Assembly: GCA_021841725.1 (NCBI GenBank)
Contig: JAKCEC010000019.1
Span: 1-13,678, forward strand
Reading direction: 5' to 3'
Source of the DNA: Actinomycetes bacterium
GTDB taxonomy: Bacteria > Actinomycetota > Acidimicrobiia > Acidimicrobiales > RAAP-2
DNA: 13,678 nucleotides
A program made the translations under genes and the position numbers. This document shows positions 4,300 to 13,678 of the stretch, in pieces. How positions within the stretch are numbered: position 1 is the stretch's first letter; each line of letters opens with the position of its first letter. The notes below the pieces were generated by a model. The model was not told the DNA's origin and did no database searches. It worked only from the letters and a program-made list of their open reading frames with translations.

Positions 4300-5508
4300 T
4301 CAATCGAGGCGTTCGATGATCATGGCCATACCCTGACCACCCCCGACGCACATCGTCTCGAGGCCGTAACGCAGGCCCGACTCCTCGAGCGAGTGCAGCA
4401 GCGTGGTCATGATGCGCGCGCCGGTCATCCCGAAGGGGTGCCCGAGGGCGATGGCCCCGCCGCGGACATTGAGTTTCTCCAGGGGCACGCCTAAGTGACG
4501 CGCGCTCGGCAGCACCTGGGCGGCGAAGGCCTCGTTGATCTCCACCAGGTCGATGTCCTTCATGGTGAGGTGCGCGCGCGCGAGCGCCTGGCGACTCGCC
4601 TCGATGGGTCCGAGGCCCATGATCTCGGGGTTCAACCCGCTGAGCCCCGAGGACACGATGCGCGCCCGCGCACGGATTCCGAGTTCTCGCGCGCGGACGT
4701 CACTCATCACCACGACCGCGGCGGCTCCGTCATTGAGCGGACACGCGTTGCCCGCGGTGATCGAACCGTCGGGCCGAAAGACGGGGGCGAGAGAGGCGAG
4801 GCGTTGCATCGAGGTATCGGCCCGCGGACCGTCGTCGGTGTCGACCACGCGACCGTCACCGCGCGTGAGCGCCACGATCTCGCGGGCGAAGTAGCCGTTG
4901 GCCTGATGGGCGACGGCGAGTTCCTGGGAACGAAGGGCGAACTCGTCCATCTGCGACCGGCTGACGCCCTCGAGCTGGGCGACGTTCTCCGCCGTCTGGC
5001 CCATGGCGATATAGACGTCGGGCAGACCCGGGGGCGGGGTCCACGTCGCCGCGCCGCTCGCCGAGCGCGCCGCGCTGCGCTCGCGCGCGCTCGCGAATCG
5101 GGGGTTGGCGGCCGCGTCGACGTCGGACAGACCCGCGCCGAAGCGCGAGACGGTCTCGACCCCCGCGGCGACGAACACGTCGCCCTCTCCCGCGCGGATG
5201 GCGTGGGCGGCCATGCGGATCGTCTGGAGCGAGGAGGAACAGTAGCGGTTGACGGTGACGCCGGGGACGTCGTCGAGGCCCGCGAGGATCGCACTCACGC
5301 GCGCCAGGTTGAACCCGGCCTCACCGGCCGGCTGGCCGCACCCCACCAGGAGGTCCTCCACCATGTGGGGGTCGAGTTCGGGTACCTGCTCGAGGACCCG
5401 ACGCACCACGAAGGCGGTGAGGTCGTCGGGACGTTCGTCCACCAGGGACCCCTTGAAGGCGCGACCGATCGGCGTTCGACCGGCGGCGACGAGGACGGCT
5501 TCAGCCAC
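4300..5508 (-). CDS. Acetyl-CoA acyltransferase / thiolase
   Basis: The 402-residue product is a thiolase-superfamily enzyme that would cleave 3-ketoacyl-CoA with CoA (beta-oxidation of fatty acids or sterol side chains) or run in reverse to condense acetyl-CoA. The nucleophile is Cys90 in NRYCSSSLQT. NEAFA carries Asn325, GHPFGMTGAR carries His357, and CVGGGQG carries Cys387. The length is normal (about 390-405). A segment at about residues 125-160 (Ala/Arg-rich, then TPPPGLPDVYIAMGQTAENV) resembles the loop seen in actinobacterial FadA proteins. The asparagine usually found in NVNGGAIALGHP is Arg here (NVRGGAIALGHP). The GTG start gives the expected MAEAVLVAAGRTPIGR. It begins 10 bases after the riboflavin synthase stop, so it is likely in the same operon. 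No enoyl-CoA hydratase/hydroxyacyl-CoA dehydrogenase partner is adjacent, so substrate class is uncertain. Confidence 0.92.
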   Translation of the reverse strand: MAEAVLVAAGRTPIGRAFKGSLVDERPDDLTAFVVRRVLEQVPELDPHMVEDLLVGCGQPAGEAGFNLARVSAILAGLDDVPGVTVNRYCSSSLQTIRMAAHAIRAGEGDVFVAAGVETVSRFGAGLSDVDAAANPRFASARERSAARSASGAATWTPPPGLPDVYIAMGQTAENVAQLEGVSRSQMDEFALRSQELAVAHQANGYFAREIVALTRGDGRVVDTDDGPRADTSMQRLASLAPVFRPDGSITAGNACPLNDGAAAVVVMSDVRARELGIRARARIVSSGLSGLNPEIMGLGPIEASRQALARAHLTMKDIDLVEINEAFAAQVLPSARHLGVPLEKLNVRGGAIALGHPFGMTGARIMTTLLHSLEESGLRYGLETMCVGGGQGMAMIIERLD

Positions 5509-5518
5509 GGCGACCGCC

Positions 5519-6061
5519 CTACTTCAACTGCAGCGGGCCGGCGTCGTCAAAACCTTGACGAACGCCTTGACCGGCGCGGCGGCTCAGTTGGTGGGGCTCG
5601 AAGAGCATCCAGTACGCGTTGCGCGCGTGCTTGCGCGAACGGTTCTCGAAGACGCTGGCCAGGACCTTGGGGTCACTGGCCTCGTCCTCGTGGACGAAGA
5701 CCTCCAGGATGGGCGTGCCGGTGAGGAGTTGGGCCATCATGATCCCCTGGGCGGCCTCGTGGGCGCACTGCTTGTCGATGGGCGCCGACCCGGGCATGCC
5801 CAGGGCGACGACGATGGCGCAGCCGTCCTCGCGAATCATGTTCATCGCCGCCACGGCGAGGTCCTTGAAGCCCGGTACCGTCCGGGCCACCACCTTGAAG
5901 GTCGTGTTGTAGCCGGGACAGATCGCCAACTCGTCGCGGGCCGCCTGGCCCATGTCGTAACGCGCGAAGGTGGTATCGACGACCCCGATGCGGATCTTCG
6001 GGACCCGTGACTTCTTGGGCGCCTTCTTCTCGGAGGTCTTCTTCTTCTGGCTCTTTTTCAT
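5519..6061 (-). CDS. ribC: Archaeal-type riboflavin synthase (RibC, lumazine-synthase fold) with lysine-rich N-terminal tail
   Basis: The 180-residue product matches, block by block, the archaeal riboflavin synthase known from Methanocaldococcus MJ1184. The blocks are VVDTTFAR (27-34), TVPGFKDL (61-68), ALGMPG (86-91), DKQCAHEA (96-103), EVFVHEDEA (120-128) and GQGVRQGFDDAGP (164-176). By family knowledge this enzyme dismutates two 6,7-dimethyl-8-ribityllumazine molecules to riboflavin plus the pyrimidinedione. It is a pentamer related to lumazine synthase and not to the usual bacterial trimeric RibE. The first 22 residues contain 10 lysines and lie ahead of the conserved core; archaeal members that I recall start almost directly at the core. 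The ATG at 6061 is preferred over a GTG at 6067, because GGGAG (6071-6067) sits 5 bases before the ATG and would overlap the GTG. Neighbours are PPK2 (39 bases upstream) and thiolase (10 bases downstream); no other rib gene is in the window. Catalytic activity is inferred from motif conservation. Confidence 0.87.
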   Translation of the reverse strand: MKKSQKKKTSEKKAPKKSRVPKIRIGVVDTTFARYDMGQAARDELAICPGYNTTFKVVARTVPGFKDLAVAAMNMIREDGCAIVVALGMPGSAPIDKQCAHEAAQGIMMAQLLTGTPILEVFVHEDEASDPKVLASVFENRSRKHARNAYWMLFEPHQLSRRAGQGVRQGFDDAGPLQLK

Positions 6062-6066
6062 CGTCA

Positions 6067-6071
6067 CTCCC
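6067..6071 (-). promoter_or_regulatory. Shine-Dalgarno (GGGAG) deciding the ribC start
   Basis: GGGAG on the minus strand is followed by a 5-base spacer (TGACG) and ATG at 6061. It overlaps the alternative in-frame GTG at 6067, which therefore lacks a usable ribosome site. Confidence 0.6.
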
Positions 6072-6100: not shown

Positions 6101-6883
6101 TCACGCCAGGTAATTGGTCCCGTGCGAGGGCGGCACCGTGAAGCCGTGACGTTCGAGGTCGTGTTCCCAGCGTTTGATCAGCGTTTCGAGGACGTAGACC
6201 CGGGCGAAGTGCTTGTTCTCGCCCGCGACGAGGTCCCAGTGCGCGTGCGCGTGGTCGGTCTCGTCGATCATGTCGCGCACCGCGCGCAGGTAGAGCGGGC
6301 GCAGGGAACGGTTGTGCCAGTCGGCCTCGGTGAGTTTCCACTGCTTGGAGGGGGTGCTGGCGCGGTCGTTGAAGCGACGCAGCTGCTCCTCGTCGGAGAT
6401 GTGCATCCAAAACTTGACCAGGGTCACGCCGTCGTTGACCAGGGCGTCCTCCCACTGGACGATCTCCTTGGCCGACCGGGCGACGGCGTCGGCGTCGATG
6501 AGCTGGTCCACGCGCTCGACCAGGAGGCGTCCGTACCACGAGCGGTCGTAGACGGTCATCTCGCCCTCACCGGGCAGCGACGGGGAGAAGCGCCACAGGA
6601 AGTGGTGGCGCAGTTCCTCGGGCGTGGGGGTCGCGATCGGCACCACGAGCACGTGGCGCGGGTCGAGGCCCGCGGTCAGTCGACGGATCGCTCCGCCCTT
6701 GCCGGCGGCGTCGAAACCCTCGAAGAGCACGATCAGGCCCGGGGCGTGCGCCGCGGGTCCGAGCAGTCCGGCGCTGAAGAGCCGCAAGTGCAGGAGTCGC
6801 TTCTGGGCGGCGGCGATGCGTCGCTCGGACTCCTCGACGCCCATCGTCTGGGAGAGGTCTAAATCGTCGAGGCGGTTGCTCAT
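6101..6883 (-). CDS. ppk2: Polyphosphate kinase 2 (PPK2) family protein
   Basis: The 260-residue product is a single-domain PPK2, which uses polyphosphate to phosphorylate nucleoside mono- or diphosphates (or the reverse) in the cytoplasm. The Walker A loop is FEGFDAAGKGG (54-64, with Lys62). The Walker B/polyphosphate region is VYDRSWYGRLLVERV (111-125, with Asp113). The lid region continues with DEEQLRRFNDR, followed by the C-terminal signature WDLVAGENKHFARVYVLETL. These motifs resemble the catalytic domain of Pap-like (AMP-phosphorylating) PPK2 more than class I enzymes, but subclass is not certain from motifs alone. The ATG is 4 bases after the glycosyltransferase stop, indicating co-transcription, and riboflavin synthase follows after 39 bases. 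Polyphosphate-dependent nucleotide supply is a plausible role; the operon partners do not share an obvious pathway with it. Confidence 0.92.
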   Translation of the reverse strand: MSNRLDDLDLSQTMGVEESERRIAAAQKRLLHLRLFSAGLLGPAAHAPGLIVLFEGFDAAGKGGAIRRLTAGLDPRHVLVVPIATPTPEELRHHFLWRFSPSLPGEGEMTVYDRSWYGRLLVERVDQLIDADAVARSAKEIVQWEDALVNDGVTLVKFWMHISDEEQLRRFNDRASTPSKQWKLTEADWHNRSLRPLYLRAVRDMIDETDHAHAHWDLVAGENKHFARVYVLETLIKRWEHDLERHGFTVPPSHGTNYLA

Positions 6884-11595: not shown

Positions 11596-11601
11596 GTGAG
11601 A

Positions 11602-13137
11602 ATGGGAGTCGCCTTCGAAGATGATGCGTCGGGCGCGTGGAACGAGATGTTCTCGTCCCCGGGTCAACCGCGGCCTATCTACGAGCGGCTCCTCGCCGAT
11701 CTCAACGCCTACCAACCCCAAGAACTCCACCAGCGCGCCGAGCAACTCGCGCGGACCTTCATCGACCGCGGCGTCACCTTCGCCCACAGTGGTGAGGAGC
11801 GGCCCTTCCCGCTCGACCTGGTGCCGCGCATCCTCGGGGCCCTGGAGTGGGATCGCCTCGCGCGCGGCATCGCCCAGCGGGTCCTCGCCCTCGAGGCGTT
11901 CCTCGCCGACGTCTACGGTGACGGACGCATCTTCGACGAGGGGTTGATGCCGCGTCGCGCGGTGACGTCGAGCCCCCACTTCACCCGGGCGGCCTTCGGT
12001 ATCGCGCCGCCCAACGGCGTTCGCATTGCGGTGGCCGGGATCGACCTCGTCCGCGACGAACACGGTAACTTCTGCGTGCTCGAGGACAATGTGCGGATCC
12101 CCTCGGGCGTGAGTTACGTCATCGAGAACCGTCGCGCCATGACCCAGGCGTTCTCCGCCCTCTTCTCGGATCACCGCGTGCACCCGGTGGACTCCTACCC
12201 CTCGCGGCTCTTCGCGGCGCTCCTGGCCGCGGCGCCCGTCAAGGCGGTGGACCCCGTGATCGTGGTGTTGAGTCCCGGGGTGTTCAACGCCGCCTACTTC
12301 GAGCACGTGCTGCTGGCGCGCATGATGGGCGTGGAGTTGGTGGAGGGCCGCGACCTAGTGTGTCGCTCGAATCACGTGTACATGCGCACGACGAACGGCG
12401 AGCGCGCGGTGCACGTGATCTACCGTCGCGTCGACGACGACTGGCTCGATCCGCTGCAGTTCCGCCCCGACACCGTCATCGGGGTGGCGGGGGTGGTGAA
12501 CGCCGCGCGCGCGGGCCACGTGGTGATCTCCAACGGCATCGGTAACGGCGTGGCCGACGACAAGTTGATCTACACCTACGTCCCCGCGTTCATCCGCTTC
12601 TACCTGGGCCAGAAGCCCCTCCTCGACAACGTCGAGACCTACCGACTCGAAGACGACGAGGCGCGCGCCGAGGTGCTCGGCCACCTCGAACGCTACGTGG
12701 TCAAACCCGTCGACGGTTCGGGGGGCAAGGGCATCGTCATCGGCCCGGCGGCCACCAAGGCCGAGCTCAAGAGCCTGCACCGGGCGGTCAGCGCGTCACC
12801 GCGCAGCTACATCGCCCAGCGCCCGGTCGCCCTCTCCACGCACCCCACCCTGGTGAACGACACCATCGCCCCGCGTCACATCGACCTGCGACCTTTCGCG
12901 GTGAACGACGGCGAGGAGGTGTGGGTGCTCCCCGGCGGCCTCACCCGCGTGGCACTCGGGGCCGGGGACCTCATCGTCAACTCCTCGCGCGGTGGGGGGT
13001 CCAAGGACACTTGGGTCCTCAATGACGAGGCGATACCCTACCGCGGCGCGGTGCCGCCCGCGAGTGCGCGTTCGCGGCGCTACGCGGCGCCCCCGCGCCA
13101 AAACGACGAGTACGTCGTGGAGCAGGGCGAACAGTGA
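11602..13137 (+). CDS. Circularly permuted type 2 ATP-grasp protein (COG2308 family)
   Basis: The 511-residue product belongs to the circularly permuted ATP-grasp group (formerly DUF404/DUF407), predicted ATP-dependent carboxylate-amine ligases. Family signatures are in order: LEDNVRIPSGVSYVIENR (160-177), YRRVDDDWLDPL (274-285), NGIGNGVADDK (311-321), the ATP-binding loop VVKPVDGSGGKGIVIGP (366-382), YIAQ (403-406), RHIDLRPFAV (425-434), then GGLTRVALGAGDLIVNSSRG (445-464) followed by GGSKDTWVL. Length is usual for the family. The ATG at 11602 is chosen; an in-frame GTG lies at 11596 and cannot be excluded. Its stop overlaps the alpha-E gene as GTGA, indicating coupled translation. By published comparative genomics (Iyer, Aravind and co-workers on amidoligases), this pair often travels with a transglutaminase-like gene and is predicted to make or attach a peptide; the actual substrate is unknown. 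Confidence 0.92.
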   Translation: MGVAFEDDASGAWNEMFSSPGQPRPIYERLLADLNAYQPQELHQRAEQLARTFIDRGVTFAHSGEERPFPLDLVPRILGALEWDRLARGIAQRVLALEAFLADVYGDGRIFDEGLMPRRAVTSSPHFTRAAFGIAPPNGVRIAVAGIDLVRDEHGNFCVLEDNVRIPSGVSYVIENRRAMTQAFSALFSDHRVHPVDSYPSRLFAALLAAAPVKAVDPVIVVLSPGVFNAAYFEHVLLARMMGVELVEGRDLVCRSNHVYMRTTNGERAVHVIYRRVDDDWLDPLQFRPDTVIGVAGVVNAARAGHVVISNGIGNGVADDKLIYTYVPAFIRFYLGQKPLLDNVETYRLEDDEARAEVLGHLERYVVKPVDGSGGKGIVIGPAATKAELKSLHRAVSASPRSYIAQRPVALSTHPTLVNDTIAPRHIDLRPFAVNDGEEVWVLPGGLTRVALGAGDLIVNSSRGGGSKDTWVLNDEAIPYRGAVPPASARSRRYAAPPRQNDEYVVEQGEQ

Positions 13138-13678
13138 GCGAACGCGGCATGCTCTCACGACTCGCCGAGTCATTGTTCTGGATCGGTCGCTACATCGAAC
13201 GCGCCGACGACACCGCGCGCATCGTCGACTCCTACGTGCACCGCATGGTCGAAGACCCGTTCAACGACGAGAGCGCCACGTGCCGTTCACTCTTCGCCAT
13301 CTTGGGTATCAGCGTCGACGCCGAGCGACTGCGCACGCCCGAGACCCTCCAGACCATCGCCTACGACGTCGAAAACCCCAATTCCATCGCGGGCGCCCTG
13401 AACGGGGCCTTCGAGAACGCGCGGCGCAGTCGCGACTACATCTCCTCGGAGATGTGGGTGGCGCTCAACACCACGCGCAACGAACTGCCCAAGCACGAAC
13501 GGCGCGCGCGCGACCTGGGTCCGTCGACCTACCTGACCTACGTGCGCGAACGCACCGCGCTCCTGGCCGGACTCACGGACGCGACCCTGAGTCACGACGA
13601 CGGGTGGCGCTTCGTGGTACTGGGGAGAAACCTCGAGCGCATCGACATGAGTGCGCGCCTCCTGCACAGTCGGGTGGT
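13134..13678 (+). CDS. Alpha-E domain protein (COG2307/DUF403 family), 3' end outside window
   Basis: The frame runs without a stop from GTG 13134 to the window edge (181 codons), so the C-terminal part is missing. The start of the product reads MLSRLAESLFWIGRYIERADDTARIVDSYVHRM (split: MLSRLAESLFWIGRYIERAD, then DTARIVDSYVHRM). It is followed by about 45 residues, then NARRSRDYISSEMWVALN and later HDDGWRFVVLGRNLERIDMSARLL. These are the hallmarks of the all-helical, Glu-rich alpha-E family. GTG 13134 overlaps the ATP-grasp stop (GTGA); an in-frame ATG at 13149 begins exactly at the conserved MLSR and could be the true start. Function is not established; constant linkage with the ATP-grasp protein suggests a partner subunit or substrate carrier. 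The family is usually about 300 residues, so a little over half is visible. Confidence 0.9.
   Translation, partial: MSERGMLSRLAESLFWIGRYIERADDTARIVDSYVHRMVEDPFNDESATCRSLFAILGISVDAERLRTPETLQTIAYDVENPNSIAGALNGAFENARRSRDYISSEMWVALNTTRNELPKHERRARDLGPSTYLTYVRERTALLAGLTDATLSHDDGWRFVVLGRNLERIDMSARLLHSRV

Follow-up and report, generated by a model that had tools for sequence, protein, structure and literature searches.

Riboflavin synthase is described as a homotrimer in bacteria, yeast and plants and as a homopentamer in archaea, where its sequence is completely different (PMC10366380). In A. aeolicus and B. subtilis, a C-terminal tail packs the bacterial enzyme, RibE, into the cage of RibH (PMC13376624). 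An archaeal-like synthase, RibE2, has been described in roseoflavin-producing Streptomyces, where it is ascribed to horizontal transfer and belongs to the rosB cluster (rosG, ribE2, ribX, ribY, rosB) of Streptomyces davaonensis, S. cinnabarinus and S. berlinensis (PMC11039241). We examined a 13,678-nucleotide stretch of actinobacterial DNA, called the window throughout, in which an original prediction had placed an archaeal-type riboflavin synthase gene, ribC. The genome that contains the window is a metagenome-assembled genome (MAG) of 1.4 Mb, 73% complete and split into 203 contigs. We hold with high confidence that ribC encodes the only riboflavin synthase of this organism, an archaeal gene having displaced RibE in a mosaic pathway.

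The gene runs on the minus strand from an ATG at 6061 to a stop at 5519; the plus-strand reading of 5519..6061 is interrupted by a stop. An alternative GTG start at 6067 would yield 182 aa, and the 180-aa start was chosen on the basis of the ATG at 6061 with gggag at 6071-6067.

5519..6061, minus strand: ribC, archaeal-type (pentameric-family) riboflavin synthase, 180 aa, assigned by TIGR01506 (180.3 bits) and by sequence and fold match to PDB 2b98/2b99
6067..6071, minus strand: Shine-Dalgarno-like gggag, 5 bases ahead of the ATG, read from the sequence
5993..6061, minus strand: Lys-rich N-terminal extension, residues 1-23, from sequence and model

All six RibC blocks quoted in the original prediction (VVDTTFAR, TVPGFKDL, ALGMPG, DKQCAHEA, EVFVHEDEA and RQGFDDAGP) are found in the minus-strand translation. 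RibC and RibH have a common fold, and we considered whether the window protein could be a divergent RibH that is caught by the archaeal model through this similarity. PF00885 also matches the protein, and the RibH model TIGR00114 gives 24.8 bits, far under its curated cut-off of 84.6 bits. In contrast, the protein matches the archaeal model TIGR01506 with 180.3 bits (NCBIfam; E 2.1e-53, model positions 2-151 of 151, curated cut-off 100.55 bits), which favours archaeal RibC as originally called. The RibE model TIGR00187 gives no match to the protein. The top solved structures by sequence are M. jannaschii RibC (2b98/2b99) and constructs containing it, and an AlphaFold monomer model (pLDDT 87.6) superposes best on 2b98_C, at an rmsd of 1.2 Å and 52% identity (about 50% by sequence), whereas the next structural matches are lumazine synthases at ~20% identity and mostly 3-5 Å. 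The same genome also encodes a separate RibH. A divergent RibH is thus rejected on profile scores, and we regard it as extremely unlikely.

We compared residue conservation after thinning near-identical rows and found 33 positions conserved at ≥95% in both archaeal and bacterial rows, all of which the window protein keeps; at eight other positions, it deviates from the archaeal 90% consensus. Comparison with seven relatives gives dN values of 0.065-0.144 against dS values of 0.86-2.29 (dS near saturation), indicating purifying selection. The N-terminal extension is modelled with lower confidence (mean pLDDT 65 for residues 1-10 and 69 for residues 11-20), and a similar Lys-rich stretch precedes the core in many same-genus-like rows but is missing from the majority in other families. 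By its sequence, the gene appears to be a real and functional-looking archaeal-type riboflavin synthase that would catalyse the reaction of its family. Many of these genes are already named 'riboflavin synthase' in sequence databases.

The gene is flanked by a kinase and a thiolase gene, as originally noted, and no other riboflavin gene is present among the ten ORFs scanned.

6101..6883, minus strand: PPK2-type polyphosphate kinase, upstream neighbour, context only (PF03976, 223 bits)
4300..5508, minus strand: acetyl-CoA C-acetyltransferase (thiolase), downstream neighbour, context only (NF005890, 652 bits)

The three genes are co-directional, separated by 39 and 10 bases, and the 'operon' of the original prediction appears to be co-directional packing only. 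Beyond the thiolase lie Ada and then an EamA transporter, and a glycosyltransferase is also among the neighbours. An Rfam scan of the window gave no family above gathering score, and thus no FMN riboswitch was found in it. At the far end of the window, 11596-13676 holds a circularly permuted ATP-grasp protein (PF14403/PF04174) followed by another ORF, a putative alpha-E partner.

We next consider the relatives of the protein. The best 80 of 524 in the named collection comprise 61 bacterial copies at 68-90% identity and 19 archaeal copies at 58-63%. The 61 bacterial loci carry labels such as Acidimicrobiaceae, Acidimicrobiales, Actinomycetes, uncultured actinobacterium and similar; three are labelled Acidobacteria/Acidobacteriota, and one copy with this type of label (L034) is placed among the other bacterial rows in the tree described below. 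In these 61 loci (L031-L091), a thiolase gene lies on the same strand within 1.75 kb of ribC in 47, and a PPK2 gene on the same strand within 3.5 kb in 42. Only two of the 14 loci without an adjoining thiolase end within 1.2 kb downstream, indicating that the neighbourhood truly differs in some relatives. The location of ribC is therefore inherited in much, but not all, of the Acidimicrobiales-type lineage. All 61 of these loci are MAG records, and the assembly containing the window is fragmented (203 contigs), which would suit a binning artefact, that is, an archaeal contig or gene misplaced in actinobacterial MAGs. Against this stand the 68-90% identity of the 61 loci, the thiolase beside ribC in 47 of them, the presence of ribC on a 1.2 Mb contig in L048, and the finding that no archaeal row is closer than about 65% among the rows compared (the best 80 of 524 and the tree rows). 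With 61 related loci among the best 80 of 524, we rejected a binning artefact, which is hardly credible.

We also searched whole genomes drawn at several taxonomic levels. RibC scores over the cut-off in 107 of the 120 genomes of the window's family, and 79 of the 83 good-quality family genomes have some RibC match, although the match of one of these (G171, 19.7 bits) falls only at the place of RibH. Wider draws give 30 of 198 genomes for the order (across ten family labels), 12 of 148 for the class and 9 of 396 for the phylum, the last all within two families of the same order. The archaeal draw, made around an Aciduliprofundum-labelled genome, gives 128 of 194. RibC is over the cut-off in 3 of 14 control genomes overall, and three of the four archaeal controls give a match (M. 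jannaschii, Sulfolobus and Methanosarcina, but not Haloferax). Archaeal-type RibC is not peculiar to one MAG.

The distribution of canonical RibE is complementary. TIGR00187 matches only 1 of the 120 family genomes and none of the 83 good-quality ones, and Lum_binding (PF00677), tried on 30 genomes, exceeds its cut-off in one (G195) and has a further weak match of 22 bits in G106. Neither model matches the window's genome; since this genome is 73% complete, the absence of RibE is read from its relatives, 119 of 120 of which in the family give no RibE match. RibH passes its cut-off in 112 of the 120 family genomes, and the separate RibH of the window's genome lies on another contig (C158). In the class draw, RibE matches 118 of 148 genomes but none of the 12 RibC carriers. 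In the order draw, RibE matches 127 of 198 genomes, 42 have neither synthase, and 29 of the 30 RibC genomes are without any RibE match; the match in the remaining one (G341) is a 19-bit fragment containing a stop. The co-occurrence of the three proteins indicates that RibH is mostly accompanied by exactly one of the two synthases.

The gene order of the rib operon bears on the absence of RibE. We inspected the 25 RibC loci in which ribD and ribBA are both in view (23 from the window's family and 2 from the family labelled f42). The order is ribD-ribBA-ribH in all 25, with no ribE match, and the aligned ends of ribD and ribBA are -84 to 197 bases apart. As a control, ribE was found in all 19 RibE-bearing loci, arranged as ribD-ribE-ribBA-ribH in 14, as ribE-ribBA with or without ribH in three, and as ribE alone in two. 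Gene identities were confirmed by NCBIfam in six loci (L249, L250, L251, L252, L254 and L166). In one RibC locus of family f5 (L252), ribBA-ribH stands at the contig start and ribD is beyond reach; in the window's genome, contig C158 carries the C-terminal part of ribBA and then ribH, and the ribD junction lies off this contig. Thus, ribE is missing from the slot between ribD and ribBA that relatives fill.

These observations bear on the two outcomes offered in the original prediction. With no RibE match in 119 of 120 family genomes, its slot empty and RibH kept, replacement of RibE is strongly favoured over a new role for the fold. The window ribC very probably encodes the one riboflavin synthase of the organism. 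On this view, a ribC of archaeal origin would have entered an ancestor of part of an actinobacterial order (Acidimicrobiales, by the names of the relatives), the native trimeric RibE would then have become redundant, and ribE would have been lost from between ribD and ribBA. In the resulting pathway, 6,7-dimethyl-8-ribityllumazine would be made by bacterial RibD, RibBA and RibH, and RibC would dismutate two lumazines, yielding riboflavin and 5-amino-6-ribitylaminouracil. Judging by M. jannaschii RibC, the enzyme is probably a homopentamer. Alternatively, ribC could encode an accessory synthase of secondary metabolism like the roseoflavin RibE2, and not the housekeeping enzyme. The RibE2-type copies of Streptomyces fall on the same tree branch and are accessory there, and ribC is here distant from the rib operon. 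However, RibE is missing both from RibC carriers and from the operon, RibC is over the cut-off in most genomes of the family (107/120), and neighbours such as PPK2, thiolase and Ada do not form a biosynthetic cluster. Because RibE is missing, an accessory gene as the main role was rejected, and we consider it very unlikely.

Exceptions occur around this replacement of RibE by RibC. In the family, 13 of 120 genomes are without RibC over the cut-off; among the good-quality ones, four (G102, G214, G171 and G172) have RibH and neither synthase, and one (G220) is without RibC, RibE and RibH. One family genome (G195) has RibC plus an ORF in which RibE and RibB are fused; this ORF (G195:C65, L167:4713-6068, minus strand) reads as RibE then RibB domains and is either contamination or a real fusion. 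In the family labelled f61, RibC occurs in one genome and RibE in three, indicating that the history was not one simple event. From the listed class and order rows outside the family, we picked 11 near-complete genomes with neither synthase (the order total being 42), and RibH is also missing in 10 of these, the exception being G258. The absence of RibC, RibE and RibH in these ten looks like loss of the whole pathway. The ten near-complete class genomes with no RibE or RibH match and no RibC over the cut-off (G002, G019, G051, G075, G122, G281, G266, G268, G018 and G022) are probable riboflavin auxotrophs.

To place the bacterial copies relative to archaea, we built an unrooted tree with 58 rows from bacteria and 80 from archaea. 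Near-duplicates were thinned, from 117 actinobacterial rows to 72 and then 58, and from 70 newly fetched archaeal rows to 52. The archaeal sample comes mostly from the 128 over-cut-off genomes (30 loci, and 40 places from the lower-scoring part), beyond which archaea are few. A single branch (100/100, present in all 200 bootstrap trees) separates archaea from bacteria, so that all sampled bacterial copies, ours included, lie on one side of it. The archaeal rows nearest to this branch vary, being the L100 group in the first tree and L283 in a larger tree. RibH tells another story. In a quick tree of RibH, one branch (SH-aLRT 97) sets off 25 rows from families f1 and f5 (22 from RibC carriers), another (SH-aLRT 100) sets off 25 archaeal rows, and 27 other actinobacterial rows lie between them. 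Because the RibH of the lineage and that of archaea form separate groups, ribC was apparently acquired on its own.

As the tree is unrooted and few archaea come from beyond the draw, the direction of transfer is read from distribution. The same two features of the data leave room for an archaeal-type enzyme that is ancestral in bacteria, or that moved from these bacteria to archaea. Yet RibC is found in 128 of 194 genomes of the archaeal draw against 9 of 396 of the actinobacterial phylum, these within one order, and three of four archaeal controls match. In addition, 34 of 49 archaeal loci have ribC adjoining ribH, against none of 65 actinobacterial loci (L222 and L092 being one locus in this count). 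A bacterial origin is therefore very unlikely. The transfer from archaea suggested in the original prediction gains from the fully supported split, the rarity of RibC in the phylum and the non-archaeal RibH. An archaeal origin of this ribC is supported, with an archaeon as the presumed donor.

Other bacterial copies connect this lineage to RibE2. A tblastn search of a plasmid collection returned one match, 61.7% identical and annotated ribC, on Streptomyces camelliae plasmid NZ_CP115301.1 (L338). It has a gamma-glutamyltransferase gene on one side and ribX on the other; rosB follows at a greater distance, ribA is nearby, and by its gene content this locus resembles the published rosB cluster. 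Among the relatives of this plasmid-encoded copy are proteins from S. cinnabarinus and Streptantibioticus rubrisoli, along with two from Dormibacteraeota MAGs. When these relatives were added in the larger tree (rows thinned to 37 and 60), all bacterial rows still fell on one side of a 100/99 branch. The two Dormibacteraeota proteins (P0250 and P0251) adjoin the Streptomyces RibE2-type group. The larger tree suggests a nesting of the Streptomyces and Dormibacteraeota copies inside the Acidimicrobiales-type copies (98/93), but an AU test does not reject a tree in which the Acidimicrobiales-type copies are held together (p-AU 0.504).

One residue distinguishes most bacterial copies from archaeal ones.

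5969..5971, minus strand: codon of residue 31, Thr (the archaeal state) in the window protein, from the alignment

Residue 31 is Thr in 59 of 60 archaeal rows. Of the 127 Acidimicrobiales-type rows extracted, with duplicates kept, 122 have Met, and so do 91% of the 58 thinned rows. The window protein is among the five Thr31 rows of the 127; L031 and L032, which are close to it, carry Met. In the Streptomyces/Dormibacteraeota group, Met is found throughout the seven named rows (Streptomycetaceae and Dormibacteraeota), and one further row (P0258) has Thr. This pattern is compatible with a common bacterial ancestor of these copies. We tentatively propose, at somewhat below an even chance, the joint scenario that a single archaeal ribC, acquired by an Acidimicrobiales-type ancestor, displaced RibE as sole synthase across about ten family-level groups, that the RibE2 of Streptomyces roseoflavin clusters and the Dormibacteraeota copies came from this lineage instead of straight from archaea, and that RibE-type loading into the RibH cage does not take place.

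An archaeal-like, transferred RibE2 is already known; the new elements are a lineage-wide replacement of RibE and the link of this lineage to RibE2. The matches listed from the open-licence literature include none that reports RibE being replaced in these bacteria. Here a lineage of uncultured actinobacteria appears to cross the divide between bacterial and archaeal synthases at an essential step of vitamin synthesis, and the operon shows the states before and after clearly. Since RibE is packed into the RibH cage elsewhere, the lineage is a natural experiment on whether a synthase needs a matching RibH; a swap of RibE for RibC, if true, means that no RibE-type loading into the cage occurs. 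The RibE2 of roseoflavin producers may also have passed through this lineage as a bacterial intermediate. Finally, the lineage warns against calling a genome riboflavin-deficient solely because RibE is missing.

Four known systems frame the comparison. RibH (TIGR00114) has a fold in common with the window protein, with weak sequence similarity and a score far under cut-off. Canonical RibE (TIGR00187, PF00677) is expected to carry out the same reaction with a protein of a different sequence family; RibE is a trimer (PMC10366380), and its operon slot is empty in RibC-carrying relatives. M. jannaschii RibC (2b98, 2b99; TIGR01506) resembles the window protein in family, identity (about 50%), fold (rmsd 1.2 Å) and conserved residues, whereas the window ribC belongs to a bacterium with a non-archaeal RibH, does not adjoin ribH and encodes a Lys-rich N-terminus; most bacterial copies also differ from it by Met31, the window protein excepted. 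RibE2 of the rosB cluster is alike in being an archaeal-type synthase in an actinobacterium, and the copies of S. cinnabarinus and the S. camelliae plasmid fall on the same bacterial branch and share DTMF. RibE2 is, however, an extra copy within an antibiotic cluster, beside many riboflavin genes. The window ribC is not beside rosG, ribX, ribY or rosB, its neighbours being PPK2, thiolase, Ada and glycosyltransferase, and in its lineage it is apparently the sole synthase, with ribE gone from the operon.
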